A stretch of DNA of 44,001 nt. It comes from Bacillota bacterium. GTDB lineage: Bacteria; Bacillota; Dehalobacteriia; UBA4068; UBA4997. This document shows positions 7,077 to 24,057 of the stretch, piece after piece. Where the stretch lies: contig JAFQHN010000023.1 of assembly GCA_017397935.1 (NCBI GenBank), positions 1-44,001 of the forward strand. Direction: 5' to 3'. A model generated the notes under the pieces. It ran no database searches. It was not told where the DNA came from and saw only the letters and a list, made by a program, of their open reading frames with translations. A program made the position numbers and the translations under genes. The first letter of the stretch is position 1. Every line of letters begins with the position of its first letter.

Positions 7077-8246
7077 ATGACAGAAAATAAACAGGAAAAT
7101 TTGACCGGCCAATTACTGGAAAACACGGTTGACGATATGGCACGAAAAGCCGAGAGCGAGAAAATCTGGGGGGAAGCGGATATTAAGCTGCCCAACACGC
7201 ATAATGCGGTTGCTCCTGCCGCCAGGATGAGCTGGTGGGGGCGGCACTTTGGTTTTATGTCAGCCGAGGCCAGGGTTTGGTTTTGGGCGGTGCTGCTGCT
7301 GATGATTTGCGGCGGCTTTTATCTGGGTTTTTGGTATGCCTGCCAGCAGGAGGAGCCGATTGATGTGCCTTATGTAACCGCCACCAATTTCTATGCCGAT
7401 AAGGCGGCGGCCGAGGCGGCCATGAAGGGCTATCTGGGCGAGGACGAGCTGCTGACCATATTGATGCTGGGGTGCGATATGCGTGAGGGAGAGAACTCCG
7501 GCCGTGCCGATACCATTATGCTGGCTTTTGTGAACATTGAGGACGGCGCTGTAAATTTGCTGTCCATTCCCCGTGACACCCGTGTGGAGCTGGCTGATGG
7601 CAAGGGTACCACCAAAATCAACCATGCTTATGCTTATGGCGGCGTGGCGCTTACCCGCAAAACGATTTCTAATTTTTTGGATGTGGAGATCGACCGCTAT
7701 GTGCAGGTGGATTTTGAAGGCTTTGCCGGTATCATTGATGCGCTGGGCGGTGTGGAATATAATGTGGAACAGCGGATGTATAAGCCGGAGGAAAATATTG
7801 ATTTGCAGCCCGGCCTGCAAAAGCTGAACGGCAAACAGGCATTGGCTTATGTGCGTTGGCGCGGTACGCCCACGGCAGACATCGGCCGCATTGAACGCCA
7901 GCAGAAATTCCTGAACACGGTGCTGGACCAGGTGATGAGCAGCGGCACGATTTTCAAGCTGCCCAAGCTGATGGGTGAGATCAATCAGTCGGTTACCACC
8001 GATTTTGAGCTGAGCGAATTGAAGCATCTGGTGGATAAGTACAAGGAATTCCCCTCGGTAAGCTTTGCCTCGGATAAATTGCCCGGCGAGGATACTCGCA
8101 TTGAGGGTATCAGCTACTGGAAGTATTTTCCCAACCAGACGGCCGCTTTGGTGCAGCAGATGAAGAATTTTACGCTGCCCGATAATGATGCGCCGACACC
8201 GGATGCAAACGGCGGCACAGCAGAAAATCAGAATACAGGGGTGTGA
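7077..8246 (+). CDS. LytR-CpsA-Psr (LCP) family glycopolymer ligase
   Basis: LCP enzymes transfer polyprenyl-linked glycopolymers to peptidoglycan on the outer face of the cytoplasmic membrane. The product (389 residues from ATG 7077) has a cytoplasmic head of about 65 residues, one membrane helix (VWFWAVLLLMICGGFYLGFW) and the LCP domain with GCDMREGENSGRADTIML, LLSIPRDTRVEL, KINHAYAYGG, VDFEGFAGIIDALGGV and the arginine-rich IGRIERQQKFL. GTG codons at 7065 and 7071 are alternative starts; a weak AAGGG sits at 7059-7063. A Pro/Asn/Gly-rich tail ends the protein. The stop is 3 bases before tagA, so the two are coupled. Confidence 0.9.
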   Translation: MTENKQENLTGQLLENTVDDMARKAESEKIWGEADIKLPNTHNAVAPAARMSWWGRHFGFMSAEARVWFWAVLLLMICGGFYLGFWYACQQEEPIDVPYVTATNFYADKAAAEAAMKGYLGEDELLTILMLGCDMREGENSGRADTIMLAFVNIEDGAVNLLSIPRDTRVELADGKGTTKINHAYAYGGVALTRKTISNFLDVEIDRYVQVDFEGFAGIIDALGGVEYNVEQRMYKPEENIDLQPGLQKLNGKQALAYVRWRGTPTADIGRIERQQKFLNTVLDQVMSSGTIFKLPKLMGEINQSVTTDFELSELKHLVDKYKEFPSVSFASDKLPGEDTRIEGISYWKYFPNQTAALVQQMKNFTLPDNDAPTPDANGGTAENQNTGV

Positions 8247-8249
8247 GTG

Positions 8250-9068
8250 ATGGCTGAAATGGAAATTTTGGGCGCCAGAATAAGTGACCTGGATATGGTG
8301 GAAACTGTTTGCGCACTGGCTGCATATATTGATGTGGGGCGCCAGCAGAATACCGCCGATGCCATGATGCACCATATTGTGACGCTGAATGCCGAAATTT
8401 TATATAAAGCGCAGACCGATGAACGCCTGATGAAGATTATTAACAATGCGGCGCTGGTTACGGCTGATGGTTCCGGTATTGTGTTGGCGGCCAGAGAGCT
8501 GTGCGGTAAGGAGATTGAACGGGTTACCGGCATTGATTTGATGCAGGAGCTGTGCCGGCAGAGTGCGGCCTGCGGTTGGAGCATTTATCTGCTGGGGGCG
8601 GCGCCCGGTGTGGCCGAGGCCGCAGCCAAAAACTTGCAGGAGCAATACGGCACCATAATCTGCGGCTGGCATGACGGTTATTTCTCCGAGACCGAGCAGG
8701 CATGGGTTATCGGCGAGATCAACGAGAAAAAACCGGATATTTTGCTGGTGGCGCTGGGGGCACCGCGGCAGGAGTTTTGGATCGAGGATAATCAGGACCG
8801 CCTGCGTGTGCCGTTGGTTATCGGTGTGGGCGGCTGCTTTGATGTGATCTCCGGCAATATCAAGCGGGCACCGCTGGCTTTTCAGCGGATGGGGCTGGAA
8901 TGGCTGTGGCGGCTGATAAAGGAGCCGTGGCGTTACAAGCGGATGTTGGCCCTGCCGAAATTTGTGCTGCTGGTGAAGCGTGAGGCCCGCCGCAAGCACG
9001 CGCAGATGGCCGAGAGTGTGCGGCGTAATGTGCGGCGCAAAAATGCCGATGACAACAAAAAAAGATAA
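8250..9068 (+). CDS. WecG/TagA/CpsF family glycosyltransferase
   Basis: The family adds N-acetylmannosamine (or a related sugar) to undecaprenyl-PP-GlcNAc, the second step in teichoic-acid-like linkage units and in enterobacterial common antigen. The 272-residue product has the GT26 signatures HHIVTLNAEILYKA, ALVTADGSGIVLAAR, RVTGIDLMQEL, IYLLGAAPGVAEAAAKNL, DILLVALGAPRQEFWI and GVGGCFDVISGNIKRAP, and a basic C-terminal tail that probably contacts the membrane. It follows the LCP gene directly, and the partner WecA/TagO enzyme is at 22999, so both early steps of one glycan are encoded in this block. Confidence 0.92.
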   Translation: MAEMEILGARISDLDMVETVCALAAYIDVGRQQNTADAMMHHIVTLNAEILYKAQTDERLMKIINNAALVTADGSGIVLAARELCGKEIERVTGIDLMQELCRQSAACGWSIYLLGAAPGVAEAAAKNLQEQYGTIICGWHDGYFSETEQAWVIGEINEKKPDILLVALGAPRQEFWIEDNQDRLRVPLVIGVGGCFDVISGNIKRAPLAFQRMGLEWLWRLIKEPWRYKRMLALPKFVLLVKREARRKHAQMAESVRRNVRRKNADDNKKR

Positions 9069-9105
9069 GAAAATTTTGCAAGATTATAAATTTGTTAAAG
9101 TTTTA

Positions 9106-9134
9106 TTTACATTTTGCTGTAATAATAGTAGATA
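9106..9134 (+). promoter_or_regulatory. Probable promoter of the SLH protein gene
   Basis: TTTACA (9106-9111), 17 bases, TAGATA (9129-9134), in an AT-rich gap 45 bases before the start. The sequence GTAGATAGT occurs twice in tandem around the -10, so the exact element is uncertain. Confidence 0.5.
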
Positions 9135-9178
9135 GTAAAGTAGATAGTTGCGATTTTTCTGAGAAGGAGTGTTTGATA

Positions 9179-10642
9179 ATGAAGAAATTTACGTTTTTGC
9201 TTCTGACTTTGGTGCTGACTTTTGCCATGGCAGGGCAGGCGTTGGCTTTTGATGATGTGGCGGCGGCGGATAAGGCTGCGGTGGATAAGGTGGCGGCGGC
9301 CGGTATAATGCAGGGTTACCCTGACGGCACTTTTAAGCCGAACAATACCATTACCCGTGCCGAGTTTGCCAAGGTGGCCACCCTGGCGCGTGACCTTGAT
9401 AACCCCCATGCGGCTTATACCCAGATGTTGTTCCATTTCAGCGACCTGAAAGAGGGCGCGTGGTACAATCAGTACATTCAGAATGCGGCCAATGCGGGCC
9501 TGATGCAGGGTGACGCCGAGGGCACCTTCCGCCCGAACGATACCGTCAGCCTGGCCGAGGTTTACACCGTTATGCTGCGTATGATCGGTTATAATATGGA
9601 TGGCGAGGGCAACTGGCCGCACAACTATATGTCTAAGGCGGCTGTACTGGGCGCACCTGTAAGCGGGGTTACCACTGCGGCCTGCAACCGCGGCGATGTG
9701 GCTAAAATCGTGGTTTGGGCGCTGGATTTGAACAAGGAATCCGATAAGGCTGACGGCAACGGCCAGCTGGCGGTGGCAACCGATGTTTCGGCCAAGGAAC
9801 TGACGGTTTATCTGCCGGAGAGTGATACCACCCGCAATTTGGCTTACGGAGCCGATTGTGACTGGCAGATCACCCAGAACGAGGTTGAGGGCCTGCTGAT
9901 TTATATTGAAACCGATGCTGACGGCAAGCTGGTAAGCGTAAGCAAGGCAGGCATCAAAACCAACAGCCTGCATGAAGCACTTATTACCGATGAGCAGATT
10001 AAGCTGAACGGCAAAAATTATGCGGTGGCCGATGATGCCGAGATTATGGTTATCAACAGCGCCGGCGGCGTGAATGACGTGCCGGTGGATAAGCTGCTGG
10101 AAAGCTCTTATGTGGCCAGCCTGCGTTCCAACAATTATTATGCCCCCATTCAGTATGTTTTGGAGGACGGCAAGGTGTCTGTCCTGCTGATCGGCAGCTA
10201 TGCCGGCCGCACCGAGCTGCACTTTGGCTTTATTGAAAGCTATGGCGAGGGCGCAGATGGCACAATGGTGCAGTTCTTCGGTGATGATACCAACTACCTG
10301 TGGGAAGGCGATGAAGATCCGCAGGAAAATAAGCTGTACGCTTATGAATTTACCTCCGGCGGCGTTGACGGCTATGTGGTTGATGTGACCAAAGAGGAAA
10401 TTAAAGATTATACTGCGGCAACCACGGTAGCTGATATTTGCGTGGCCGGCGGAACCAAGTTTATCATTACGGATGACACCGTGATTATGGAAGTGGAATA
10501 TAATGCAGACGGCACGGTAGATTCGGTGGAATATGTGGACGAAATCGACGAGGACGACATGGTGCGCGTGCGCTATGAGTTGAAGAACAACGATACCGGT
10601 ATCGAGGCTGTATATATTCTGGTGGATGTTACCGACAGATAA
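9179..10642 (+). CDS. S-layer-homology domain surface protein (N-terminal SLH)
   Basis: The 487-residue exported protein starts MKKFTFLLLTLVLTFAMAGQALA, a clear signal peptide ending AxA at about residue 23. Two good SLH repeats follow: IMQGYPDGTFKPNNTITRAE (first) and LMQGDAEGTFRPNDTVSLAE (second). A third, degenerate one is near VLGAPVSGVTTAACNRGDVA. SLH domains bind wall polymers. The C-terminal 300 residues are acidic, Gly/Val/Asp-rich and beta-like, without the terminal aromatic residue of an outer-membrane barrel, so this looks like an S-layer-type protein rather than OmpM. ATG 9179 follows AAGGAG; the longer upstream frame has no ribosome binding site. Confidence 0.88.
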   Translation: MKKFTFLLLTLVLTFAMAGQALAFDDVAAADKAAVDKVAAAGIMQGYPDGTFKPNNTITRAEFAKVATLARDLDNPHAAYTQMLFHFSDLKEGAWYNQYIQNAANAGLMQGDAEGTFRPNDTVSLAEVYTVMLRMIGYNMDGEGNWPHNYMSKAAVLGAPVSGVTTAACNRGDVAKIVVWALDLNKESDKADGNGQLAVATDVSAKELTVYLPESDTTRNLAYGADCDWQITQNEVEGLLIYIETDADGKLVSVSKAGIKTNSLHEALITDEQIKLNGKNYAVADDAEIMVINSAGGVNDVPVDKLLESSYVASLRSNNYYAPIQYVLEDGKVSVLLIGSYAGRTELHFGFIESYGEGADGTMVQFFGDDTNYLWEGDEDPQENKLYAYEFTSGGVDGYVVDVTKEEIKDYTAATTVADICVAGGTKFIITDDTVIMEVEYNADGTVDSVEYVDEIDEDDMVRVRYELKNNDTGIEAVYILVDVTDR

Positions 10643-10652
10643 TTGCAGAGTA

Positions 10653-10746: not shown

Positions 10747-10770
10747 ATTGCAGGGTAATTAACAGTAAAG

Positions 10771-10802: not shown

Positions 10803-10881
10803 GCTACCGACTATCATAATTGGCAGTACTATCTGCCGATGATTTATAAAAATGCTAAGGATTAAGGAAGGTCTGGGAGAA

Positions 10882-12183
10882 ATGAGAAAACTTTTGAAGA
10901 ATCATGGATTGCTGGCTATGCTGCTGCTGGCGGCGCTGGCTTTGTGCGGCTGCGGCGGCGAGCAGGTGGTGGAGGAAGACCGCGGTACGGCCGTGGAAAC
11001 TGCCAAGGTTGCTTACGGTACCATTACCGATGCTACTGTTTTGCGCGGTAATGTGGTGGCTGCCGAGGATGTCTATGTTATCCCCAAGGCGCAGGGCGTG
11101 GTGCACAGCGTAAATGTTGCCGTGGGTGACGTTATTGCCGAGGGCCAGAGCATTTGCCAGATTGATACCGTTGATTTGCAGACTGCGTTGGCGTTGGTAC
11201 AGTCTCAGTACAACACCGTAAACAGCGCATACCAGACGGCGGTTAAGAACCGTGACCGTTATGCAGCGCTGTATGCCGAGGGTGCAATCTCTCTTTCTCA
11301 GCTGGAACAGGCTGAATCTGCCGTTACCGGTATTGGTATCGACAGCGTGCGTTTGCAGGTGCAGCAGGTGCAGGATCAGATCAATAACTGTAATGTAAAA
11401 TCCACCGTCAGCGGCATTGTGGCCGAGCTGAATGTTGACCCCGGTGATATGGCCGGCGGCTCTTATGTGGCCCGTGTGGTAAACATTGACAAAGTAAAGC
11501 TGAAAGCCAATGTGACCGAGAACCTGATTGCCTGCATTGAGATGGGTATGGAGCTGCCCGTACATATTGCATCCGTATCTGATGAGCCTTTTGTGGGCGT
11601 AGTAACCTCTTTGCCGGTGGCTGCCAACCAGACCATGACTTATCCTGTGGAAATTACCATTGATAACCCCGACCATAAGATTATGGGCGGTATGTTTGCC
11701 GAGGTTGATGTAGTGCGCAGCGAGGCTGTAAATTCTCTGATCGTGCCCAAGAGCGCGGTAGACAGCAACAGCACCGTTTATGTGGTGGAGGGTGAAACTG
11801 CCCGTGCCGTACAGGTGGAAACCGGTATGTCTGATGATAACAATATTGAAATTATCTCCGGTTTGCAGGCCGGTGATGAGGTGGTTACTGCCGGTGCTTA
11901 TTTGCTTAGCGACGGTGATAAGGTGCGCGTTGTAAGCACCGCTGAGGTTGTGGGTGCCGACAATACCCCCGAAGCTGTTGATGATACTGTAACTGACGCA
12001 CCTGCCGATGCAACCGATGCAGAAACCGCCGGTGATGCTGCCGATGTGGCTGATAATGCCGATAAGGCCGAAACCGACGGCGCTGAGGCAGAGGAGAAGG
12101 ATGATTCTGTTGAAGGTGACACCGAAGTTGAAGGCGGCACCGAAGGCGAAGCTGAAACCGAAAATAAAACTGAGGCTGAATAA
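10882..12183 (+). CDS. RND efflux periplasmic adaptor lipoprotein (HlyD/AcrA type)
   Basis: This is the membrane-fusion subunit joining an RND pump to an outer-membrane channel. The 433-residue product begins MRKLLKNHGLLAML and has a lipoprotein-type signal ending ALCGC, so it is probably lipid-anchored. A barrel/lipoyl half-motif (VIPKAQGVVHSVNVAVGDVI), an alpha-hairpin (residues 95-170), the second lipoyl half (IVAELNVDPGDMAGG) and a membrane-proximal domain follow. The last 75 residues are an extreme acidic Ala/Asp/Glu/Thr tail, unusual for the family. The start at ATG 10882 follows GGGAGA; ATG 10852 lacks a ribosome binding site. First gene of a three-gene efflux operon. Confidence 0.92.
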   Translation: MRKLLKNHGLLAMLLLAALALCGCGGEQVVEEDRGTAVETAKVAYGTITDATVLRGNVVAAEDVYVIPKAQGVVHSVNVAVGDVIAEGQSICQIDTVDLQTALALVQSQYNTVNSAYQTAVKNRDRYAALYAEGAISLSQLEQAESAVTGIGIDSVRLQVQQVQDQINNCNVKSTVSGIVAELNVDPGDMAGGSYVARVVNIDKVKLKANVTENLIACIEMGMELPVHIASVSDEPFVGVVTSLPVAANQTMTYPVEITIDNPDHKIMGGMFAEVDVVRSEAVNSLIVPKSAVDSNSTVYVVEGETARAVQVETGMSDDNNIEIISGLQAGDEVVTAGAYLLSDGDKVRVVSTAEVVGADNTPEAVDDTVTDAPADATDAETAGDAADVADNADKAETDGAEAEEKDDSVEGDTEVEGGTEGEAETENKTEAE

Positions 12184-12211
12184 CTGAATTTTGCGGAGGA
12201 GAGCTGAATAA

Positions 12212-15200
12212 ATGGATATTATTAAAACAGCCGTAAAACGCAGAGTAACAGTTATTATGGTATTTCTGTGTCTTACGGTGTTGGGCCTGGTGTCATTTGG
12301 CAGCCTGGGCATGGATTTGATGCCGGATATGGATTTGCCGGTGGCGGTGGTTATGACCACTTACAGCGGCGCCGGCAGCGAAGAAGTTGAAAGCATGGTT
12401 ACCGAAACTATCGAATCAGCGGTGGCGTCGGTAGAAGGTTTGGATGCAATCATATCAATGTCATCAACGGGTTCATCAATGGTGGCGGTGCAATATAACT
12501 GGTCAACCGATATTGACAATGCCACGCAGGAGCTGCGTGAGAAAGTCGATTTGATTGAGGGCTATCTGCCTGACGGTGTGGACACCCCGATGGTCATGAA
12601 GATGAACATGAACTCGATGCCGATTATGGTGCTGGCGGTAAGCGGCGGCAACGGCCTGGCTGACCTTAAACAGACCATTGACAACGATATTGTGCCCACA
12701 TTAGAGCGTCAGAGCGGTGTGGCTTCGGTATCGGTGGGCGGCGGTTTTGAGGAAACCATCGACATTGTGGTTAACCCCCAGACTCTGGAAAACTATAACC
12801 TGTCTTTGAACAGCATTGTGGCGGCGGTTGCGGCCAATAATATGAATATGGCGGCCGGCGAGATTGTGGACGGCGGCAAAAATATGACTGTGCGTCTGCT
12901 GGGCAAGTTTGAGGCACTCTCTGATGTGCAGAATGTAGACATTAACCTGCCCACCGGCGGTGTGGTTAAGTTGAAGGATATTGCCAGCGTAAATCTGGTG
13001 CAGACCAATGACTCGGCCGATGTATATCAGAACGGTGATGAGGCGGTTTATGTATCCATCACCAAGCAGAGTGACGCCAACACGGTGCAGACTGCGGCTG
13101 CGGTGCAGAAAGCCGTTGCCGAGATGCAGACTACTCTGCCGGATAACATTCATTTTGCCGAGGCGATGAACCAGGCGGATATGATCAACGATACCCTGGA
13201 TAACCTGGTGAGCAGCCTGTTGCAGGGCGTTGTGCTCTCGGTTGTGGTATTGTTCCTGTTCCTGCGCAGCGTACGAAGCACTCTGGTAATCTCGATTTCG
13301 ATTCCGGTATCGTTGATTTCCACCTTCATGCTGATGAACATGGCTGACATGACCTTTAATATGCTGACTCTGGGCGGTATGGCTCTGGGTGCCACCATGA
13401 TGGTCGACAGCTCGGTCGTTATTTTGGAGAATATTCAGCGTCTGCGAACCGACGGTATGTCCGGGTTTGACGCGGCGGTTTACGGTACCCGTCAGATGGT
13501 GCTGGCAGTAGCTTCTTCCACTCTGACCACGGTTGCGGTATTCCTGCCCATCGCCTTTACCGACGGTCTGGCATCAATTTTGTTTACCGATATGGCGTTG
13601 GTAATCAGCTTTGCGCTGCTGGCCAGCTTGCTTACCGCGGTTATTCTGGTGCCGATGATGTGCTCCACCTTGCTTAAACCCGAGGCCAGTTACAGCACCG
13701 AGGGCGGCGGCTTTAAGGCTTTTGTCGGCAAGGGACAGAACGCTTTTGCCGAGGGCTTTGATAAGGTACGCGATATTTACTACAAGATGTTGAAGTACTG
13801 CATGAGTCATCGTAAGCGTACGGTGATTGTGGTTACTGTTTTGTTTGTGGCATCCCTGGGTCTGGTCGGTATTATCGGTATGGAATTTATGCCTTCTCAG
13901 TCCAGCGGTTCTCTTACTGTCACCCTGACTATGGAGGACGGTGTGGCCAAGGAGGAAACTGCGGTAATGTCCGCCAGGGCCGAGGATATTATTGTTGATA
14001 CCTGCGGCGAGGACCTGGAAAATATCCTGTCTATTGTGGGCGGCAGTATGGGCAGCATGAGTCTCAGCGGCGGTTCGTCCGAGAATGTCGCTACCATGAT
14101 GCTGACGCTGGTATCCGAGAAAGAGCGCGAGTGGGAAGTTAATGACCTTGCCGATACTCTGCGTGATAAAATTTCTGATATTCCCGGTGTGCAGGTAAGT
14201 GTTGCTGTCGGTGATTCCATGAGCATGATGTCAACCGGCGGCGGTGCCAGCATCAAGGTTTACGGTGAGGATTTGGATACTCTGCGTGAGATTTCCAATG
14301 ATATTGTGGCTATTATGGAGAGTATGCCGGCTACCCGTGAGGTTACCAGCACGATGGACGATGCTTTGCCGGTTATCGAGCTGAAAATTAACGGCAACAA
14401 GGCGGCTGCCCTGGGTATGACTGTTCCGCAGGTGGCAAACAGCGTAAGCTCTTATGTAAACGGCGTTACTGCTTCCCGCTTTACGCAGGATAACGGTAAC
14501 GAGATTGATATTCGGGTGATGGTGCCGGAGGTTTATCAGCAGAATTTGGATATGGTGCTGAACCAGAAGATGATGTCGCCTACCGGTGCGGTTTATCGGT
14601 TGGGTGATGTGGTGACAGCCGAGCAGGGTTACGGCCCCGTTACCATTAACCGCCAGGACCAGGAGCGTTATGCCAGCGTAAGCTGTGATTTGGTGGGCCA
14701 GGACCTGAATGCCTTTACCGAGGAATTGGAAGCCAGAATTGCGGCAGAATTGGTGCTGCCGGAGGGCTACCGTGTAAACAGCGACGGTACTTATGAGCAG
14801 ATGGTTGAATCTTTCAGCGGTCTGATATCTGCTATTGCGCTGGGTTTGGTGCTGATTTATATGATCATGGCCTCGCTGTATGAATCGTTCAGCCAGCCGT
14901 TTATCATCTTCTTTACTCTGCCCACCGCGTTTATCGGCGCTATGTTTGGTTTGTTTATTACCGGCAGACCGCTGGATATTACCAGTATGATCGGTATGCT
15001 GGTGCTGTTCGGTATCGTAGTAAACAACGGTATCGTATTGGTTGACTCTATCAATGAACACCGTCGCAGCCAGGGCCTGGGCCTGCGTGAGGCTATTATG
15101 AAGGCCGCACCGCTTCGTCTGCGTCCGGTATTGATGACTTCTGTTTCGACCATTCTGGCGATGATCCCGATGGCGTTCTTCGGCAGCGACGGCGGCCAGA

Positions 15201-15373
15201 TGATGGCCGGTTTGGCGGTGGTGGTAATGTTCGGTATGCTGACCTCTACCTTTATTACCCTGCTGTTTGTGCCGGTGGTATACAGCCTGTTTGATGATTT
15301 TGCTGCCAAGGTGGGACGCCGCAAGGAAACGTCTAAAAACGGCCTGCACAAAACTGCGGATATTGAGCTTTAA
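12212..15373 (+). CDS. RND family multidrug/solute efflux pump (HAE1-like)
   Basis: The 1053-residue inner-membrane proton antiporter has the normal RND length and two-fold layout: TM1 (VTVIMVFLCLTVLGLVSFGS), a large periplasmic loop, TM2-TM6 around residues 335-490, a second loop and TM8-TM12 to the end. The TM4 relay reads MMVDSSVVILENI: Asp399 is present, but the second acidic residue (Asp408 in AcrB) is Ser, and the TM10 lysine site is Asn938/Asn939 (VVNNGIVLVDS), a pattern seen in Gram-positive-type RND pumps such as SwrC relatives. Substrate is not predictable. It starts 28 bases after the adaptor gene and precedes the TolC-like gene. Confidence 0.94.
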   Translation: MDIIKTAVKRRVTVIMVFLCLTVLGLVSFGSLGMDLMPDMDLPVAVVMTTYSGAGSEEVESMVTETIESAVASVEGLDAIISMSSTGSSMVAVQYNWSTDIDNATQELREKVDLIEGYLPDGVDTPMVMKMNMNSMPIMVLAVSGGNGLADLKQTIDNDIVPTLERQSGVASVSVGGGFEETIDIVVNPQTLENYNLSLNSIVAAVAANNMNMAAGEIVDGGKNMTVRLLGKFEALSDVQNVDINLPTGGVVKLKDIASVNLVQTNDSADVYQNGDEAVYVSITKQSDANTVQTAAAVQKAVAEMQTTLPDNIHFAEAMNQADMINDTLDNLVSSLLQGVVLSVVVLFLFLRSVRSTLVISISIPVSLISTFMLMNMADMTFNMLTLGGMALGATMMVDSSVVILENIQRLRTDGMSGFDAAVYGTRQMVLAVASSTLTTVAVFLPIAFTDGLASILFTDMALVISFALLASLLTAVILVPMMCSTLLKPEASYSTEGGGFKAFVGKGQNAFAEGFDKVRDIYYKMLKYCMSHRKRTVIVVTVLFVASLGLVGIIGMEFMPSQSSGSLTVTLTMEDGVAKEETAVMSARAEDIIVDTCGEDLENILSIVGGSMGSMSLSGGSSENVATMMLTLVSEKEREWEVNDLADTLRDKISDIPGVQVSVAVGDSMSMMSTGGGASIKVYGEDLDTLREISNDIVAIMESMPATREVTSTMDDALPVIELKINGNKAAALGMTVPQVANSVSSYVNGVTASRFTQDNGNEIDIRVMVPEVYQQNLDMVLNQKMMSPTGAVYRLGDVVTAEQGYGPVTINRQDQERYASVSCDLVGQDLNAFTEELEARIAAELVLPEGYRVNSDGTYEQMVESFSGLISAIALGLVLIYMIMASLYESFSQPFIIFFTLPTAFIGAMFGLFITGRPLDITSMIGMLVLFGIVVNNGIVLVDSINEHRRSQGLGLREAIMKAAPLRLRPVLMTSVSTILAMIPMAFFGSDGGQMMAGLAVVVMFGMLTSTFITLLFVPVVYSLFDDFAAKVGRRKETSKNGLHKTADIEL

Positions 15374-15410
15374 CGGTGTTGGTTGACAGTAAATATTGGA
15401 GGAATATCCT

Positions 15411-16646
15411 ATGAAGAAAATTAAATTGCCGGCCGCCTTTTTGGGTTTGGCAGTGATGGCGGGGTTGACGCTGGGTGTTTTTGCCCAGCCGTATACCGCC
15501 GAGGCTAAAATTTTATCCGAACTGCCCAAGCAAGAGGTGGTGGATGAGGTTACCGGTGAGGTGGTAAAGCCGTCTGATGAGGTGGTGAAGCCTGAACTGA
15601 CCGGCGAGGTTAAGCAAATCAGCCTGAACGAGGCCATGGAGCTGGCCCTGGCCAACAGCGCGGCCGTTTTGCAGGCTGCCAATACCTTGGAGGATGCCAA
15701 AATTGATTATGAGCAGGCCGCCGAGGCCGGTAAAAGCCTGAATAAAATGCTGGGCCGTCCCGATAAAGGTCGTTTGAACCAGCAGCAATATCAGGTGGTG
15801 GTTATGCTGCCTGAGGTAATGGAAAAGACAATGGAAATCCAGTCTTACGCTTACGATACCCAGGTTGCCGCTGCGAAAATTCAGGTAATTCAGTCTTATT
15901 ACACGGCACTTTGTAATGAGAAGGCCGAGCAGGCCGCCGAATACAGCTATACCAAGGCGCTGAACCAGCAGAAAACGGTAAAGCTGCGCTATGAGCAGGG
16001 CATGGCTACCAAATTGGAGGTTTTGCAGGCTGAAATTCAGGTGAACAGCGCCAAAGCTGCCCTGGATGCTGCCAAAACCACCACTGTTCAGGGCAAGCGC
16101 AATTTCAGTATTCTGATTGGACAGGACGCCGAAACTAACTGGACGCCTACCAGCGATCTGACTTTTGAGCCGCTGATGATCAGTAATGTTGATGCCAAGG
16201 CCAAGGAAATGATGGAAACTTCTCCCACGGTTGGTATCTCTAAGGCAACCTTTGAGATTGCGGAGCTGACCTATGACTTTAATAACAAGTTCAGCGCGGA
16301 TTTCACCTATGCCGGCCAGATTGCGGAGCTTACTTATGATTCGGCCAAAATCTCGTATGAGAACACCCAGCGGCAGACTTATTCTGCGGCCAAGGCGATG
16401 TTGGAGAACCTGAATTTGGTGCGTTCTCAGTATGAGATTTATGAGGACAGCCAGGAGCTGTTGGAGGAGGTTTACCGCCTCTCTGAGCTGCAATATGCCA
16501 ACGGCTTGAACACCCAGAATGATGTGCAGGCGGCTGCCGGTGATATTATCAGCAACGATGCCAAGCGTTTGCAGGCGCTGCTGAATTACAACATTTTGAA
16601 AACTACCATTGAGCAGGGCATTATCGGTACCGGCGAAAATAAATAA
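15411..16646 (+). CDS. TolC-family outer-membrane efflux channel
   Basis: The 411-residue product starts at ATG 15411 behind GGAGGA and has a signal peptide (KLPAAFLGLAVMAGLTLGVFA). The rest is mostly long amphipathic helices with two outer-membrane-efflux-protein (OEP) repeats, roughly residues 60-225 and 255-405, typified by YYTALCNEKAEQAAEYSYTK and LRYEQGMATKLEVLQAEIQ in the first repeat and LSELQYANGLNTQNDVQAA in the second. Such proteins form trimeric ducts through an outer membrane, so the gene is direct evidence for a diderm cell. Third gene of the efflux operon; a terminator follows. Confidence 0.88.
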   Translation: MKKIKLPAAFLGLAVMAGLTLGVFAQPYTAEAKILSELPKQEVVDEVTGEVVKPSDEVVKPELTGEVKQISLNEAMELALANSAAVLQAANTLEDAKIDYEQAAEAGKSLNKMLGRPDKGRLNQQQYQVVVMLPEVMEKTMEIQSYAYDTQVAAAKIQVIQSYYTALCNEKAEQAAEYSYTKALNQQKTVKLRYEQGMATKLEVLQAEIQVNSAKAALDAAKTTTVQGKRNFSILIGQDAETNWTPTSDLTFEPLMISNVDAKAKEMMETSPTVGISKATFEIAELTYDFNNKFSADFTYAGQIAELTYDSAKISYENTQRQTYSAAKAMLENLNLVRSQYEIYEDSQELLEEVYRLSELQYANGLNTQNDVQAAAGDIISNDAKRLQALLNYNILKTTIEQGIIGTGENK

Positions 16647-16665: not shown

Positions 16666-16698
16666 AAGGTGGGGGTCGGCGGCTCCCACCTTATTTTT
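16666..16698 (+). terminator. Terminator of the RND efflux operon
   Basis: AAGGTGGG (16666-16673) pairs with CCCACCTT (16685-16692), then ATTTTT. Strong stem and T-run. Confidence 0.85.
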
Positions 16699-16749: not shown

Positions 16750-16778
16750 TTGAGGAATGGCGGCAAAAATATTATAAT
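16750..16778 (+). promoter_or_regulatory. Promoter of the C-terminal SLH protein gene
   Basis: TTGAGG (16750-16755), exactly 17 bases, TATAAT (16773-16778). The transcript would start near 16785, leaving a leader of about 95 bases before ATG 16878. Confidence 0.75.
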
Positions 16779-16877
16779 AAGTTAGATAGGTATGAGCTGC
16801 CGAAGGGTGCGGCATAGCTAATCATAATTAAGGCAAAATTTTAGCAAATGTTTTTATTGATTGAAGGAGGAATTGGC

Positions 16878-18218
16878 ATGAGTTTTGGTTTTGGCGGCAA
16901 GCGCGGCTTGCTTTGTTTGCTGGCGGCAGTAATGCTGTTTACGGTGGCAGTACCGGCTATGGCGGCCACTGTGGTTAAGGATGACAGTATTTTGGTGAAT
17001 AAAACACAGGTGGAGAGCGGCAAAATCGACATCTCTGATATTAAGATGACCGGCAGCGACAGCGAAAAATTTGTGATGATTGAAAAGGGCGCTATGCAGT
17101 ATGCCGCCCAAAAAGGCCTGAATGTGGGTGTTACCACCAACAACACGCATATCAGCTTACCGGCTGCGGCCATTGTAAACTCCGATGAGTGGACCAAGGC
17201 GGCCAATGCCAGCACCACTTACAACTTTGTAATTGAGCTGGATGATGATTTTGGCCTTAACCTGTCGCAGGATTTGTCGCAGGCGGCACAGGCCAAGCTG
17301 GGCTGCACCAAGGTTTCTCCCGACGGTGTCGGCATTAAAATGTACCTGCGGGGCGGCAATAACAGCTACACCTACATTTATTCCATCGACCAGGATATGA
17401 CCGTTATTTATGATTACATTATAGGGTATCGCAACGCCAACAGCCGTGCACCCCAGAAGTCTATGGCGCTGGCCTGGGCCGATGTGGAGAGAGATTTTGA
17501 CTCTACCAAGGTTACCAATGTCCTGCTGGACAGCAAGGTGGATTTGCAGGCCCAAACGGTGGAGGTTCGCACTCCTTACACCTGCGGCGCTTATGTGCTG
17601 GTAAGCAAGAACAACGCTGATAATACCAAGACTGTTTTCGGCAGCACCCCTGCGGCGCCCGGTCTCTCGGGTGAGGCCAATACCAAAGGTGTGGCGGCCT
17701 GGGCGGCAGCCAATGTGGCTATGATGCAGGAGGCCGCAGTTGTTCCCAGTGATTTATCCGGCAAAAACCTGAATGCGCCGATTACCCGTGCTGAATTTGC
17801 GGCCTACATCGTGCGTCTGGTTAAGGTCAGCGGCGATAACACCGTGGCCAACCCCTTTACCGATGTGAAGAAGGACAACCCGTATTATGCGGAGATTCTG
17901 GCAGCAGCCAACGCCGGCTTGGTGGCCGGCCGTACTGCCGATACCTTTGCCCCCAACGCCAGCATTACCCGCCAGGAGATGGCGGTGATGTTTGCCCGTG
18001 CGCTGGCGCACTCCAATGTGGTATGCTCGATGGATATGGGGCAGCTTAACACCATGCCCGATGCCGCCAAGGTGGCTGATTGGGCCAAGGGCAGCGCTGC
18101 CATTTGCGTTAACGCCGGTTTGATTGCCGGCCGTGACGGTGGTGCTTTTGCACCGCTGGCCACCACCACCTGGACCGAGGCTGTGGTTATGTTAAGCCGT
18201 CTGAGCACTATGATTTGA
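16878..18218 (+). CDS. S-layer-homology domain protein (C-terminal triple SLH)
   Basis: The 446-residue exported protein starts MSFGFGGKRGLLCLL with a signal peptide ending VPAMAA. A unique domain of about 240 residues (16-260; not recognised) precedes three C-terminal SLH repeats, with cores LNAPITRAEFAAYIVRLV, LVAGRTADTFAPNASITRQE and LIAGRDGGAFAPLATTTWTE. The SLH repeats are at the opposite end from those of the protein at 9179, as in secreted enzymes and accessory surface proteins. Start ATG 16878 is behind AAGGAGG; the longer frame to 16848 would include that site. Own promoter and terminator, just before DUF5693-csaB. Confidence 0.88.
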   Translation: MSFGFGGKRGLLCLLAAVMLFTVAVPAMAATVVKDDSILVNKTQVESGKIDISDIKMTGSDSEKFVMIEKGAMQYAAQKGLNVGVTTNNTHISLPAAAIVNSDEWTKAANASTTYNFVIELDDDFGLNLSQDLSQAAQAKLGCTKVSPDGVGIKMYLRGGNNSYTYIYSIDQDMTVIYDYIIGYRNANSRAPQKSMALAWADVERDFDSTKVTNVLLDSKVDLQAQTVEVRTPYTCGAYVLVSKNNADNTKTVFGSTPAAPGLSGEANTKGVAAWAAANVAMMQEAAVVPSDLSGKNLNAPITRAEFAAYIVRLVKVSGDNTVANPFTDVKKDNPYYAEILAAANAGLVAGRTADTFAPNASITRQEMAVMFARALAHSNVVCSMDMGQLNTMPDAAKVADWAKGSAAICVNAGLIAGRDGGAFAPLATTTWTEAVVMLSRLSTMI

Positions 18219-18286: not shown

Positions 18287-18336
18287 GGTGTATGGTTGGT
18301 ATGATGTGATTTTATGATGTTGGGGAGGAAATTTTG

Positions 18337-20340
18337 GTGACCGATATTTGGCAGAAAAAATCCCGCTGGCTGCTGTATGCGGTGGTGGCCGTGGGCGTGC
18401 TGGCATCCTTGCTGGTTTGCGCGCAGCGTATGGCGTTGGAGGCCGAAAACCGTGCCACCTTGCTCTCGTTGGAGTGGGGGCAGTTGAAGGATGTGGCGGC
18501 CCGCAACGGTTATACGGCCGAGGAGGCGCTGGAATATTTTGCGGCGGCCGATGATGATGACTTGTTCTCCGGCGTGGTTTATAAAGAGCCCACGCTGGCT
18601 GATTGGCAGAACAGCGGTTATTTGCAGCTTGCCACCGGTACCGCGCTGCTTAATGATATGCGTATGGGCGGCTGGCAGGCCGAGGATAACTGGCTGCCGG
18701 ATAATCAGCGGAATTTTATTGTGCTGTACGATGCGGATATGCAGCAGCGTGTTTTTGAGCATTTGCAGAACAAAACCTCGGCACAGAATATTTTGCATAA
18801 GCTGACCTCGGCGGAGGATGAAATTTTTGTGGTGGAAACCACCTATCCTTATACTGACCTTACTGCGTTTGGCATTGGCTTTAATGAGGACGAGCTGGCG
18901 CTGCTGCAAAAGCACGGCCTGGACCTGGTGGTGCAGGTGCGCAGCTTCCCCAAGGTGGATGAGCAGTCGCTGGACTTTGTTTTCGGCAGCATGAGTGAGC
19001 TTGGCACGCTGGCGGTGCTGTTTAATGATACCGAGCTGCCGGGTGTTACGCAGAATAACTGGGCGGAAATTTCCAAATATATGGCCGGCGTTTTGCAGGC
19101 GCAGAACCTGCCCACCGGTTATGTTGAGTTTTATAAACAGACCGGGCTTCAAACTTTTACCCGTGATATGGATTATCAGATGGTGCGTCTGCACCCGGTA
19201 TCGGAGGCTGAGTTGTTGAAGCTGACCGACACCCGCGTTGAAGAGCGGTTTGCTCTGGCGGCCGGCGAGCGCAGTATGGGCGTGATGATGCTGCGGCTGC
19301 GTCCCAGCCAGAGTCTGGATGATGCGGTACAGTATATCGGCGCGGTGCGTGATGCGATACAGCAAAAGGGCGTGGAGACCGATCGCCTGACGGTGGTGCC
19401 GGATATGCAGGTGCCCAAGTGGTCTTTGGCGGCGGCGCTGGCGGCAGTTTGGGCCGGCGGTGTGCTGCTGCTGCGGCGTTTTGATTTGGTAAAGGCGGCG
19501 TGGCTGCTGCCGACGGCCGGTTTGCTGGCCGGCGTTGGCCTGTTGGTTATCGGGCAGGAGTATTGGCTGCAAAAGCTGGTGGCGCTCTCGGCGGCGGTTA
19601 TCTTCCCGTTTTTGGGTGTGGCGGCGGTGGCCCGGGAGGACGGCCGCAGTTTGCCCAAAGCGGTGCTGGCATTCGGCCGCATGACGCTGATCTCTCTGGT
19701 TGGTGCGGTGCTGATTATCGGTACGCTGTCCGAGAAATCCTATATGTCAACGATGAACACGTTCAGCGGCGTAAAGGTGGGGCAGCTGTTGCCGCTGCTG
19801 CTGTTGATGATTTATCTGCTGTACCGTTTGGCCAGCGACCACGGCGGCCTCAGTTATCTGCTGGTTAGCTGCTGGCGCGTAATGAAGATGAAGGTGACGG
19901 TGGGCATGGTGCTGCTGGCCGGTATTGCGGCCGGTATGCTGCTGTTTTATATGCTGCGCACCGGCAACAGCGGCGTGGGTATCTCGGAGGCAGAGCGGGC
20001 CTTCCGGGCCTTCCTGGATAATGTGCTGATGGTTCGCCCCCGCACCAAGGAGTTTATGATCGCCCACCCGATCATGCTGGCGGTGCTGTATTTTGGGTAT
20101 CGCCGCAATTTGTGGCCGCTGGCGCTGCTGGGTGCCATTGGCCAGGTAAGTCTGGTCAACACCTTTGAGCATTTGCATACGCCGGTGCTGGTGTCGCTTA
20201 TCCGCACGGTAAACGGCTGGTGGCTGGGCGTGCTGATTGGTTTGGTTTTGGTATTGCTGCTTAAATATGTTGGCGGCTGGCTGCTGCAAAAGGTGCAGAG
20301 TGTGGCCCGGCTGGCAGAGGATGAGGCTTATGGCAGTTAA
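18337..20340 (+). CDS. DUF5693 family polytopic membrane protein
   Basis: The 667-residue protein has one N-terminal membrane helix (WLLYAVVAVGVLASLLVCAQ), a roughly 330-residue extracytoplasmic region (to about residue 365), then about nine membrane helices. The whole matches the DUF5693 family, found next to csaB in many Firmicutes. Its function is not established; the csaB link suggests a role in making, pyruvylating or exporting the wall glycan (inference). Start GTG 18337 is 8 bases after GGGGAGG; TTG 18334 is possible. Its stop overlaps the csaB start by 11 bases, so the two are translated together. Confidence 0.78.
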   Translation: MTDIWQKKSRWLLYAVVAVGVLASLLVCAQRMALEAENRATLLSLEWGQLKDVAARNGYTAEEALEYFAAADDDDLFSGVVYKEPTLADWQNSGYLQLATGTALLNDMRMGGWQAEDNWLPDNQRNFIVLYDADMQQRVFEHLQNKTSAQNILHKLTSAEDEIFVVETTYPYTDLTAFGIGFNEDELALLQKHGLDLVVQVRSFPKVDEQSLDFVFGSMSELGTLAVLFNDTELPGVTQNNWAEISKYMAGVLQAQNLPTGYVEFYKQTGLQTFTRDMDYQMVRLHPVSEAELLKLTDTRVEERFALAAGERSMGVMMLRLRPSQSLDDAVQYIGAVRDAIQQKGVETDRLTVVPDMQVPKWSLAAALAAVWAGGVLLLRRFDLVKAAWLLPTAGLLAGVGLLVIGQEYWLQKLVALSAAVIFPFLGVAAVAREDGRSLPKAVLAFGRMTLISLVGAVLIIGTLSEKSYMSTMNTFSGVKVGQLLPLLLLMIYLLYRLASDHGGLSYLLVSCWRVMKMKVTVGMVLLAGIAAGMLLFYMLRTGNSGVGISEAERAFRAFLDNVLMVRPRTKEFMIAHPIMLAVLYFGYRRNLWPLALLGAIGQVSLVNTFEHLHTPVLVSLIRTVNGWWLGVLIGLVLVLLLKYVGGWLLQKVQSVARLAEDEAYGS

Positions 20341-21418
20341 GAAGATTTTACTTTCCGGCTATTATGGGTTTGGTAATGCCGGGGATGAGGCGGTGCTGGC
20401 GGCGCTGGTGCAGCTGCTGGGGGATAACCTGGCGGATGTGGGCGATTTGGAGATCGTGGCGCTTTCTGCCAAACCGGAGCAAACGGCGGCTGAGCTGGGC
20501 ATCAGGGCCATTAACCGCTGGGATAAGAAAACTTTGCGGAAGGAACTGGCCGATGCGGCGCTGTTTTGCAGCGGCGGCGGCAGTTTGCTGCAAGATGTGA
20601 CCAGCGTGCGTTCGGTCTATTATTACACATCTCTGCTGAGGATGGCGCAGCGGCAGGGCGTGCCCACCATGGTGCTGGCGCAGGGCCTTGGCCCGCTGAA
20701 AACGCCGCTGGGGCGGATGCTGACGGTTAAAACCTTAAAGCATTGTAAGCTGCTAACCTGGCGCGATGCGGATTCTGTGAAGCTGGCCGGGGAACTGGGT
20801 CTGGCCGATGTGCCGACATATCAGGTGTGCGATCCTGTGCTGCTTTGGCGGCCGCAAAACGGGGATTCTGACGGCCCCACGGCCCGAATCCACCCCAAAC
20901 GGGTGGCGTTGGCGCTGCGTCCATGGAGCGATTTGAAGATCGAGGAGGCTGTCCGTCTGGTGCATTTGCTGCGAGAGGCCGGCAAAGAGGTGGTTTTGCT
21001 GCCGTTTTATTGCGGCGAGGGCGGCCACGGCGAGGATGAACGGCTGGCCGAGGAAATCAACCGGCGGCTGGGGCGTAATGTGCCCAAGGTGGAGATTTGC
21101 CGCTGTAAAACTCCGGCCGATGCCATGCGTGAGATCAGCAGCGTTGGCTTTTTGGTGGGTATGCGGCTGCATTCGCTGATTATGGCGGCGGCGCAGCAGG
21201 TGCCGGCTCTGGCGATAAGCTACGACCCGAAGGTGACCTCCTTTGCCCAAATGCTGAATATTCCGCTGGTTCAGGGCGGCTCGGCGTTTGCGGCTGATTC
21301 GGTGGCGGCGCAGATCATGGCTTACGGCAAGGAGCGTCCTGCTGACCATAGCGAGGAGTTTGCCGAGCTGTGGCGGCCGGTGCTGCCGCAGATAAAACAG
21401 CTGCTGGCCGCAAAATAA
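20330..21418 (+). CDS. csaB: Polysaccharide pyruvyl transferase CsaB
   Basis: CsaB adds a pyruvate ketal from phosphoenolpyruvate to a sugar of the secondary wall polysaccharide; pyruvylated polymer is the ligand of SLH domains in Bacillus and Thermus. The 362-residue product has the N-terminal motif LLSGYYGFGNAGDEAVLAAL, LFCSGGGSLLQDVTS, MVLAQGLGPLKTPLGR and the C-terminal donor-site motif GMRLHSLIMAAAQQVPALAI of this glycosyltransferase-B-fold family. ATG 20330 overlaps the end of DUF5693. Two SLH proteins lie upstream in the same window, so enzyme and clients are clustered. Its presence in a cell with an outer membrane is notable. Confidence 0.92.
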   Translation: MAVKKILLSGYYGFGNAGDEAVLAALVQLLGDNLADVGDLEIVALSAKPEQTAAELGIRAINRWDKKTLRKELADAALFCSGGGSLLQDVTSVRSVYYYTSLLRMAQRQGVPTMVLAQGLGPLKTPLGRMLTVKTLKHCKLLTWRDADSVKLAGELGLADVPTYQVCDPVLLWRPQNGDSDGPTARIHPKRVALALRPWSDLKIEEAVRLVHLLREAGKEVVLLPFYCGEGGHGEDERLAEEINRRLGRNVPKVEICRCKTPADAMREISSVGFLVGMRLHSLIMAAAQQVPALAISYDPKVTSFAQMLNIPLVQGGSAFAADSVAAQIMAYGKERPADHSEEFAELWRPVLPQIKQLLAAK

Positions 21419-21468
21419 TTGCGGATAATACTAAAACATTGTGAAAATATTGTTATAGAGAGAAATTT

Positions 21469-22995
21469 ATGGCAAAAAATATCTTAAAGGCAACCGGAGT
21501 TGTCCTGATTATGAATTTGGTGGTGAAGGTGCTGGGTTTCCTGCGCGAGACCAGTCTGGCCAACGCCTTTGGTGCATCTGACCTTTCCGACGCTTATCTT
21601 TCGGCCTACACCATACCGTATTTTTTGCAGGCAATTCTGGGTTATGCGCTGGTGACGGCGGTGGTGCCGATTCTGACAAAATATTTGGTGGCCGGTGACC
21701 GCAGGCAGGCTGATTATGTGGCCAGCGCCATCATCAACCTGACGGCGGTGCTGCTGACTTTGGTTACGCTGCTGGGTATGCTGGTGTGCGATTGGCTGGT
21801 GAAGCTGCTGGCCCCCGGTTACGGTGCCGATCAGGCGGCGCTTACGGCCGATTTGGCGCGTATCATGTTCCCGTCGGTCATCTTTATGGGCGTGAGCATG
21901 GTGATTACCGGCATTTGCAACGCCCATTACCGCTTTGCGGCGTCAGCGTTTGCGCCCGGTGTTTCCAATATCATTATCATTGTGGCGCTGCTGTTTTTCA
22001 GCGCGGCTTATGGTATTTGGGGCGCTGCCTGGGGCACGCTGCTGTCCTTTGTTGGTTTTATGGTGATCCAGCTGCCCGTGCTGTGGCAGATTCGCTTCAA
22101 GTACACGCCGGTGGTGGATTTGAAACACCCGGCGGTGCGTCAGCTGCTGACGGAGATTTGTCCGATTATCCTGGGCGTGGCGGTAAACCAGATTTACTTC
22201 GCGGTGAACCGAATTTTTGCTTCCTGGCTGGTAGAGGGCACGATTTCCAACATCAATTATGCCAATAAGCTGATGATGCTGCCGATGGGTATTTTTGTGG
22301 CGGCGGTGGCCAATGCCATTTACCCTGCGCTGGCGGAGTTCTCGCTGAAAAAAGACCGCGCAGGCTTGGCCGGCACCATGAAAACCGGTTTGGTATCGGT
22401 GCTGTTGGTGGCGACCCCTGCGGCAGTTGGCCTGGCGGTGCTGGCTGAGCCTATCATCGAGGTGCTGTTTGAACACGGCGAGTTTACTCACGATGATACG
22501 CTGGCCACGGCCTTTGCGCTGATTTGCTTTACGGTGGGTCTGGTGCCCATGGCGGCCAATATGATTATCACCCGCGTATTTTATGCGCTGGAAGATGTGA
22601 AAACCCCGGTACGCATCGGCGGAATTTCTATTCTGCTGGATGTCGTGCTGTCGCTGGCGCTGTTTAAGGTGCTGGCTTACGGCGGCGGCGGTTTGGCGCT
22701 GGCCAACTCTCTGGCCGCGCTGCTGGGCTGCCTGTTGATGTATTATTATTTGAAGAAAAAGGCCCTGCCGGAGCTGGCACAGGCTACCATGCTGCCCTCG
22801 CTGCTGAAAATTGCGGCGGCCTCGGTGGGCATGGGTGCGGCGGTTTGGCTGGTGGCCAAGGTGCTCTCGGCCGGCGCTGTGCTGACGGTGGCTGTCGGCG
22901 TTTTGGCCGGCGTTGTGGTTTATGCTGTGCTGGTTTTGGCGCTGAAAGTGCCGGAGACCGATTTGTTTGTAAAGAAGTTGCTGCGGCGGAGGTAA
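21469..22995 (+). CDS. murJ: MurJ/MviN family lipid flippase
   Basis: MurJ proteins of the MOP superfamily flip lipid II or related polyprenyl intermediates across the cytoplasmic membrane. The 508-residue product has about 14 membrane helices and the N-terminal signature GFLRETSLANAFGASDLSDAY, and later NYANKLMMLPMGIFVAAVANAIYP and LFEHGEFTHDDT. Ribosome binding site AGAGAGAA is weak. It follows csaB by 50 bases and precedes the WecA/TagO gene by 3, so its natural cargo here may be the glycan precursor rather than lipid II; other MurJ copies may exist elsewhere in the genome. Confidence 0.92.
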   Translation: MAKNILKATGVVLIMNLVVKVLGFLRETSLANAFGASDLSDAYLSAYTIPYFLQAILGYALVTAVVPILTKYLVAGDRRQADYVASAIINLTAVLLTLVTLLGMLVCDWLVKLLAPGYGADQAALTADLARIMFPSVIFMGVSMVITGICNAHYRFAASAFAPGVSNIIIIVALLFFSAAYGIWGAAWGTLLSFVGFMVIQLPVLWQIRFKYTPVVDLKHPAVRQLLTEICPIILGVAVNQIYFAVNRIFASWLVEGTISNINYANKLMMLPMGIFVAAVANAIYPALAEFSLKKDRAGLAGTMKTGLVSVLLVATPAAVGLAVLAEPIIEVLFEHGEFTHDDTLATAFALICFTVGLVPMAANMIITRVFYALEDVKTPVRIGGISILLDVVLSLALFKVLAYGGGGLALANSLAALLGCLLMYYYLKKKALPELAQATMLPSLLKIAAASVGMGAAVWLVAKVLSAGAVLTVAVGVLAGVVVYAVLVLALKVPETDLFVKKLLRRR

Positions 22996-22998
22996 GTT

Positions 22999-24057
22999 GT
23001 GATTAGATTGTTTTGCGCCTGTCTGTTGGCGCTGGTTGTAGGCTTGCTGATGACCAGAGTGGCCAAAATTGTGGCGCTTAAACTGGGTGTGGTGGATAAG
23101 CCGGACGCCCGCAAGGTGCATAAGGGATTGATGCCGCGCATGGGCGGCTTGGGCATTTACAGCGGTTTTATGGCCGGTGCGGTGTTCTATGTCTGCTCTC
23201 ATCCCAACCTCCTTTTTACAGGAGATGTGTTGGGCCTGCTGCTGGCCACCACCATCGTGTTTGTCACCGGTGTGGTGGATGACATCAGGAGCATCCGCCC
23301 GACCACCAAGCTGTTGGGGCAGCTGGTGGCGGCGCTGGTTTTTGTCGGCTGCGGCGGCTATGTTAAGTTTCTCAGCAACCCGTTTGGCGGCGACATTATC
23401 TTCCTGGATTACATGGGTATTCCTGTTACTGTCATCTGGCTGGTGGGTATCAGCAACGCGGTCAATCTGATTGACGGTCTGGACGGTCTGGCGGCCGGTG
23501 TCAGCATAATTTCGGCCTGCACCATGGCGGTGGTTTCGCTGTCGCACGGCTATTATATGCCGGCGGCGCTGCTGTTTGTGCTGGCGGCGTCAACATTGGG
23601 CTTCCTGCGTTATAATTTCAGCCCGGCCTCCATTTTTATGGGCGATTCCGGCTCCCTTACGCTGGGTTTTGTGCTGGGCGCTATCGCAATCATGGGGTTT
23701 GCCAAGGGTGCAACCATTGTGGCGCTGGTGATTCCGGTGCTGATTTTGGCCATCCCGATTTTCGACACCTTTTTTGCCATTGTCCGCCGCCTGATTGAGC
23801 ATAAACCGGTTTTTCAGCCGGATAAGGGGCATTTGCATCATCGCCTGCTGGCCATGGGGCTTTCTCATAAGCAAACGGTGCTGATCATCTACGCCATTAC
23901 CATGTTCATGGGCTGTATTGCCATTTTAACGGCCCTGCTGCCGCCGTGGATGACCGTGCTGCTGGTGGCGGCGGCGCTGCTGATTTTGTTTGCGGGGGCA
24001 CATCATCTGGGTATCCTGCGTATTGGCGGTGCGGATAAAACTGCCGAAAATAAATAA
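22999..24057 (+). CDS. Undecaprenyl-phosphate GlcNAc-1-phosphate transferase (WecA/TagO type)
   Basis: The enzyme transfers HexNAc-1-P from UDP-HexNAc to undecaprenyl phosphate, the first step in wall-glycan or O-antigen synthesis. The 352-residue protein has about 11 membrane helices and all MraY/WecA loop motifs: TGVVDDIRSI with the Asp pair, NAVNLIDGLDGLAAG, FMGDSGSLTLGF and the UDP-GlcNAc-type HLHHRLLAMG, which separates WecA/TagO from MraY. It starts at GTG 22999, 3 bases after murJ. It supplies the acceptor for the TagA-like enzyme at 8250. No terminator is obvious in the AT-rich 24058-24120. Confidence 0.93.
   Translation: MIRLFCACLLALVVGLLMTRVAKIVALKLGVVDKPDARKVHKGLMPRMGGLGIYSGFMAGAVFYVCSHPNLLFTGDVLGLLLATTIVFVTGVVDDIRSIRPTTKLLGQLVAALVFVGCGGYVKFLSNPFGGDIIFLDYMGIPVTVIWLVGISNAVNLIDGLDGLAAGVSIISACTMAVVSLSHGYYMPAALLFVLAASTLGFLRYNFSPASIFMGDSGSLTLGFVLGAIAIMGFAKGATIVALVIPVLILAIPIFDTFFAIVRRLIEHKPVFQPDKGHLHHRLLAMGLSHKQTVLIIYAITMFMGCIAILTALLPPWMTVLLVAAALLILFAGAHHLGILRIGGADKTAENK

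Follow-up and report, generated by a model that had tools for sequence, protein, structure and literature searches.

A stretch of 44,001 nucleotides (the window; contig JAFQHN010000023.1 of a Bacillota bacterium) carries a gene cluster which, in our judgement, is very probably a locus for building a secondary cell wall polymer (SCWP) and anchoring S-layer homology (SLH) proteins to it in a monoderm member of the Peptococcaceae, with a tripartite efflux pump lacking the outer-membrane barrel alongside. The gene kit is of a known kind, that of the SCWP-SLH systems of Bacillus and Paenibacillus, here in a monoderm. Less expected, and the interesting part, is the apparent, putatively functional tie of this locus to a barrel-less TolC-like pump. 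The window is, in full, one complete contig of a 1.59-Mb draft genome (99.4% complete) from a gut-type bacterium. All of the genes that a first-pass annotation had named from the sequence alone (WecA/TagO, TagA/WecG, a MurJ-type flippase, DUF5693, CsaB, a LytR-CpsA-Psr (LCP) protein, two SLH proteins, and the RND-TolC genes) were confirmed by searching the open reading frames with Pfam and NCBIfam profiles. They lie on the + strand between positions 7065 and 24057, their Pfam E-values ranging between 1e-13 and 1e-244 (Table 1), and are flanked by mreB and ribosomal protein genes upstream and by rpoB and rpoC downstream. Since other genera of the order show the identical gene arrangement, the gene set goes far beyond chance.

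Homology to the pyruvylated wall polymer pathway of Paenibacillus

In Paenibacillus alvei, TagA makes the N-acetylmannosamine (ManNAc)-N-acetylglucosamine (GlcNAc) acceptor on a GlcNAc-PP precursor, TagO being assigned to an earlier step, and CsaB transfers pyruvate from phosphoenolpyruvate onto the lipid-linked ManNAc-GlcNAc; TagA and CsaB have been reconstituted in vitro, and polymerisation and ligation of the SCWP were left as open questions (PMC6030368). The CsaB protein of the window scores well above the curated cut-off of the CsaB equivalog family (Table 1). It keeps the equivalents of SGYYGF (Y13/Y14/F16), S88, T94, R148, R207, R306/H308, and K328, as mapped via Paenibacillus orthologues and not via the P. 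alvei sequence itself. Residues Y14, F16, R148, R207, H308, and K328 of the P. alvei enzyme have been tested by mutagenesis (PMC10435577), and every mutagenised position is conserved in the window protein.

Further enzymes of the pathway were also found. Initiation enzymes of the TagO and TagA types are present, TagA being assigned at the superfamily level only, together with MnaA, which is needed for ManNAc and is encoded by one gene elsewhere in the genome. A predicted LCP ligase and a predicted flippase are in the cluster. The locus therefore shares with the SCWP systems of P. alvei and B. anthracis a CsaB equivalog with the tested residues, the TagA- and TagO-type enzymes, LCP protein, flippase, and SLH clients, and with Paenibacillus relatives the order DUF5693-csaB-tagA-tagO. 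It differs from them in surrounding an RND-TolC pump as well, with tagA and the LCP gene on one side of the pump and csaB and tagO on the other, and in that a family search of the genome found no Wzy_C-type glycan polymerase (PF04932).

SLH proteins are abundant: the 34 places in the genome matched by PF00395 are distributed over the genes of well over ten SLH proteins. A TRAE motif in SpaA has an arginine that forms a salt bridge with the pyruvate ketal (cited in PMC10628300). This motif occurs in the first SLH repeat of SLH protein 1, and TRAE and TRQE are found in two repeats of SLH protein 2; the remaining repeats of both proteins are degenerate for TRxE. A pyruvylated N-acetylhexosamine (HexNAc) wall polymer that binds SLH proteins, as had been predicted from the window sequence, thus fits all of the sequence evidence and matches the established P. 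alvei and B. anthracis pathway. We consider a pyruvylated SCWP with SLH clients well supported by homology, to the limit that sequence permits, with a chemistry predicted from that homology.

CsaB might instead pyruvylate some other glycan, such as a capsule or a lipid-linked sugar, and the SLH ligand might need no pyruvate. Members of PF04230 do serve diverse glycans. SLH domains of Negativicutes, moreover, bind non-pyruvylated ligands (PMC10628300). This alternative is hard to reconcile with the equivalog-level score of CsaB, the linkage of its gene to tagO, tagA, LCP, and SLH genes, and the arginine motifs in the SLH repeats. CsaB is also the sole PF04230 protein in the genome. We hold the alternative to be quite improbable.

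A second CsaB-like type of about 730 amino acids, in which a glycosyltransferase is fused to a PF04230 domain, was seen at four loci in other genera of the order (Pfam domains assigned on one of them). In two cases its gene adjoins that of a 1000-amino-acid SLH protein, phosphodiester glycosidase-like in one locus, and the loci or genera with the fusion mostly have no TolC-like gene.

A separate observation concerns large SLH genes in genome G000. Its contig C21 (17.3 kb) carries at both ends a perfect 141-bp inverted repeat. This repeat forms the 5' coding portion of two distinct large SLH genes, which point towards the interior of the contig. Contigs C7 and C17 both terminate in sequence with a 106-bp overlap to either end of C21. 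The ribosome-binding site, start codon, and signal peptide are supplied by C7 and not by C17, and C17 encodes a 464-amino-acid tyrosine recombinase (PF00589) near the repeat. The arrangement is possibly an invertible S-layer switch.

Absence of outer-membrane markers

From the presence of RND-TolC genes, the first-pass annotation had taken the cell to be a diderm and had placed the glycan in its periplasm, drawing a comparison with the Negativicutes. Searches of 35 genomes from the order, the window's own among them, turned up neither Omp85/BamA nor LpxC; BamA was detected in control genomes known to have it. The nearest named genomes belong to the Peptococcaceae, not to the Negativicutes. The OmpM-type motif TRYE, the tyrosine of which is reported to be more conserved in Negativicute OmpM (PMC10628300), did not occur in the 41 SLH segments that we aligned from the window's own genome. 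Because of these results and of the barrel-less TolC-like protein described below, the cell is almost certainly a monoderm, showing no sign of an outer membrane. A Negativicutes-like diderm Firmicute, in which a periplasmic pyruvylated glycan tethers S-layer-like or outer-membrane proteins, would account for the complete set of RND, membrane-fusion protein (MFP), and TolC-like genes, and CsaB and DUF5693 do occur together in true Negativicutes. Set against the absence of BamA and LpxC throughout the order, on which we rejected it, and against the duct model, the relatives, and the SLH motifs, this reading is scarcely credible. This removes a spurious example of a diderm with pyruvylated anchoring. 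The error arose from the TolC-like gene, which in this phylum does not indicate an outer membrane.

As the cell is almost certainly monoderm, the comparison with polyamine-modified peptidoglycan of the Negativicutes does not apply to the window, and there is no conflict to resolve. The OmpM tether of these bacteria (PMC10628300) resembles the predicted system in that SLH domains bind the wall. It consists, however, of one SLH domain on a porin, whereas the window encodes SLH trimers on secreted proteins, and the window genome has neither the OmpM-type motif nor an outer membrane.

The question raised by the first-pass annotation can be asked in real Negativicutes, since they carry CsaB with DUF5693. 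The two genes lie side by side in Veillonella (four genomes), in Negativicoccus, and in one metagenome-assembled genome of the Sporomusaceae. Four of these CsaB proteins were scored and are CsaB equivalogs (291-305 bits), and three of the DUF5693 proteins gave 565-608 bits. The tethering described for Negativicutes is to polyaminated peptidoglycan, not to a pyruvylated SCWP (PMC10628300). Among the ten best-ranked titles of 25 papers containing both CsaB and Veillonella, none, judged by title, was on cell-wall pyruvylation, leaving aside PMC10628300, which contains CsaB once, in a reference title. Veillonella csaB offers a direct test of whether Negativicutes have a pyruvylated polymer besides polyamine-peptidoglycan.

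A TolC-like duct predicted to lack the beta-barrel

The cluster had also been described as containing an RND-TolC outer-membrane system. The RND, MFP, and TolC-like (OEP) genes are indeed there, but the outer-membrane part was not confirmed, as the predicted structure of the TolC-like protein lacks a beta-barrel. In both of its repeats, the protein matches PF02321 only from profile position ~85 onward. We modelled the window's protein alone with AlphaFold2 (AF2), using an alignment of 17 relatives. In the model, a helix at residues 84-114 is joined by a 9-residue loop to a helix at 124-195, and a helix at 272-294 by a 5-residue loop to a helix at 300-363. There are no strands at the positions of the TolC barrel, and the per-residue confidence score (pLDDT) is mostly 84-97 around the loops; the two hairpins per monomer that make up an outer-membrane beta-barrel are absent. 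When compared with solved structures, the model matched TolC over 325 aligned residues with a root-mean-square deviation (rmsd) of 3.5-4.3 A (Z scores in Table 1). A TolC helical-barrel fold therefore adjoins the RND and MFP genes.

In a survey of 299 genomes of the phylum, 218 had OEP and 77 had BamA. Of the 53 genomes with strong OEP matches (E <=1e-20), 52 were BamA-positive. The OEP gene was kept in 143 of the 222 BamA-less genomes, in all but one of which (142/143) only weak matches were seen. Among the matches listed, which came from 56 BamA-less genomes, the match nearly always started at profile position 62-122, the extent of the match being a proxy for barrel loss outside the window. 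The exceptions were three genomes with one OEP copy each starting at position 1-10, and a fourth with one from position 28. One BamA-less draft in 450 contigs was seen to carry a full-length OEP together with a truncated one; the full-length copy likely comes from contamination or reflects a missed BamA.

Twelve TolC-like proteins have been described from monoderms, the hosts of which have S-layers; the duct was proposed to sit in the S-layer, and omission of the barrel was noted in the C. difficile model (Stubenrauch et al. 2022, PMC8809574). Those systems share with the window an RND/MFP/TolC-like operon without BamA in S-layer bacteria, and the barrel is partly absent from the homology model of the C. 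difficile protein. In the window model, by contrast, the barrel hairpins are wholly gone, and the genes of the pump are linked to those for SLH proteins and CsaB. With 143 BamA-less genomes against 12 proteins, the present data extend that description, and the linkage set out below supports the proposal that TolC-like ducts of monoderms exit through the S-layer. The data also offer an answer to the published question of how a monoderm assembles a TolC-like protein without the barrel assembly machinery, namely that the modelled duct has no barrel to assemble. The family matches in the other BamA-less genomes point to the same absence.

Linkage of the pump to SLH and csaB genes

The order OEP-SLH2-DUF5693-CsaB(-MurJ-TagO) is kept in six genera from five families of the order, and OEP-SLH-DUF5693-CsaB was found in three further families of the phylum; another locus has the order SLH-OEP-TagA-CsaB-LCP. 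In one genus of the order OEP abuts DUF5693, with SLH2 absent between them. In another, the pump lies ~26 kb from CsaB, yet an SLH gene stands directly upstream of the pump. SLH genes were present in 14 of 40 BamA-less OEP regions outside the order, whereas the figure for control regions was 1 of 20 (Fisher p 0.012); restricted to the 20 matched genomes, the counts were 7 and 1 (p 0.044). Not all regions are equally long, and the p-values ignore relatedness.

Several points weigh against the reading of the locus that we prefer. TagA scores below the TarA equivalog cut-off, and the second and third repeats of SLH protein 1 lack the TRxE arginine. Both the pyruvate and the glycan are predictions, as is the function of the DUF5693 protein, whose membrane part, barely tested, gave no fold match. 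Finally, a terminator-like hairpin and a promoter-like site lie between the pump and SLH2-DUF5693-CsaB (Table 1). The pump and the anchoring genes are therefore probably separate transcripts, and their linkage is one of neighbourhood, not of co-transcription.

These last two elements bear on the possibility that the pump merely exports drugs or lipids in the ordinary way and is a chance neighbour, with its barrel-less OEP being a relic of a diderm ancestor without any link to the S-layer. In favour of this, the hairpin and promoter-like site set the pump apart from SLH2, and in one genus the pump lies at a distance from CsaB; 26 of the 40 OEP loci from outside the order had no SLH gene in the stretch examined. 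On the other hand, the pump of that same genus has retained its SLH neighbour, SLH genes are more frequent in OEP regions than in control regions, and an OEP gene kept in so many BamA-less genomes is too frequent for a decaying relic. We give this explanation an even chance of being right.

DUF5693 and a proposed mechanism

We examined 75 CsaB loci from many phyla, each with 1.5 kb or more of sequence upstream; DUF5693 adjoins CsaB in 52 of them, Paenibacillus included. A literature search found no paper mentioning the family. The published P. alvei locus has an orf1 directly before csaB (PMC6030368), which, judged by position alone, is probably the DUF5693 gene. The AF2 model (pTM 0.83) has one N-terminal membrane helix, followed by a (beta/alpha)-barrel-like extracytoplasmic domain and then ~10 helices. 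Among its best fold matches, 201 residues aligned with BH1492/DUF610 at an rmsd of 3.9 A. We claim no specific enzyme class, as the fold searches gave just generic TIM-barrel matches. DUF5693 is a candidate, and no more, for the missing step of SCWP assembly or polymerisation.

Under the preferred reading of an SCWP and SLH-anchoring locus, TagO and TagA would build a lipid-linked ManNAc-GlcNAc unit, to which CsaB would add a pyruvate ketal. The MurJ-type protein would flip the pyruvylated unit, DUF5693 may act at the outer face in its assembly or polymerisation, and the LCP protein would attach the polymer to the peptidoglycan. SLH proteins 1 and 2, together with at least 10 other SLH proteins, are predicted to bind the pyruvylated polymer via their arginine-containing SLH grooves. 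The RND tripartite pump, encoded between the two SLH genes, would end in a helical TolC-like tube without a membrane barrel and most likely discharge through the wall or S-layer zone, not through an outer membrane. A bolder scheme for S-layer-bearing monoderms, which we regard as rather unlikely, is that, for the pump, the S-layer stands in for the outer membrane, the tip of the barrel-less TolC being docked by SLH proteins such as SLH2 on the CsaB-pyruvylated glycan, with DUF5693 as the missing SCWP polymerase or assembly enzyme. Two targets for genetics emerge: the part of DUF5693 in assembling the SCWP, and that of SLH2 as a pump partner.

Coordinates and neighbouring genes

Table 1. Predicted features of the SCWP/SLH locus and its surroundings in the window
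Feature	Position	Strand	Evidence
LCP (LytR-CpsA-Psr) glycopolymer transferase, predicted glycan-to-peptidoglycan ligase	7065..8246	+	PF03816 E 7e-50; TIGR00350 above cut-off
WecG/TagA-family glycosyltransferase, predicted ManNAc transferase	8247..9068	+	PF03808 E 7e-65; TIGR00696 above cut-off; TarA equivalog below cut-off
SLH protein 1: signal peptide, N-terminal SLH region (two detected, third degenerate), large C-terminal region	9179..10642	+	PF00395 E 1e-26; TRAE in first SLH
Membrane-fusion protein of RND pump	10852..12183	+	PF16576/PF13437
RND transporter	12212..15373	+	PF00873 E 4e-244
TolC-like duct predicted without beta-barrel	15396..16646	+	PF02321, match from profile position ~85; AF2 model all-helical; TolC fold Z 23-26
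Strong terminator-like hairpin 3' of pump genes	16666..16692	+	12-bp stem and T-rich tail
Promoter-like site upstream of SLH protein 2	16750..16778	+	10/12 match, 17-nt spacer; pattern match only
SLH protein 2: conserved N-terminal domain, three C-terminal SLH domains (TRAE, TRQE, TWTE)	16848..18218	+	PF00395; same N-domain in orthologues of other genera
DUF5693 membrane protein: extracytoplasmic (beta/alpha) barrel-like domain 40-345, ~10 membrane helices	18334..20340	+	PF18949 E 1e-136; AF2 pLDDT 88; TIM-barrel-like matches Z <=11.4
CsaB ketal-pyruvyltransferase, start overlaps DUF5693 end	~20321..21418	+	TIGR03609 equivalog, 275.9 bits vs curated cut-off 213.1; active-site residues kept
MurJ-type lipid-linked oligosaccharide flippase	21469..22995	+	PF03023 E 6e-91; TIGR01695 above cut-off
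WecA/TagO-type polyprenyl-phosphate HexNAc-1-P transferase	22999..24057	+	PF00953 E 9e-42
SH3-domain membrane or secreted protein, conserved downstream neighbour	24217..24726	+	PF08239; synteny

Upstream of the LCP gene, at 6380-6943, the window carries a gene with a copper-amine-oxidase N-terminal domain (PF07833-like). Genes of this kind are frequent neighbours of barrel-less TolC genes in other families (eight loci) and are possibly a wall or surface module.

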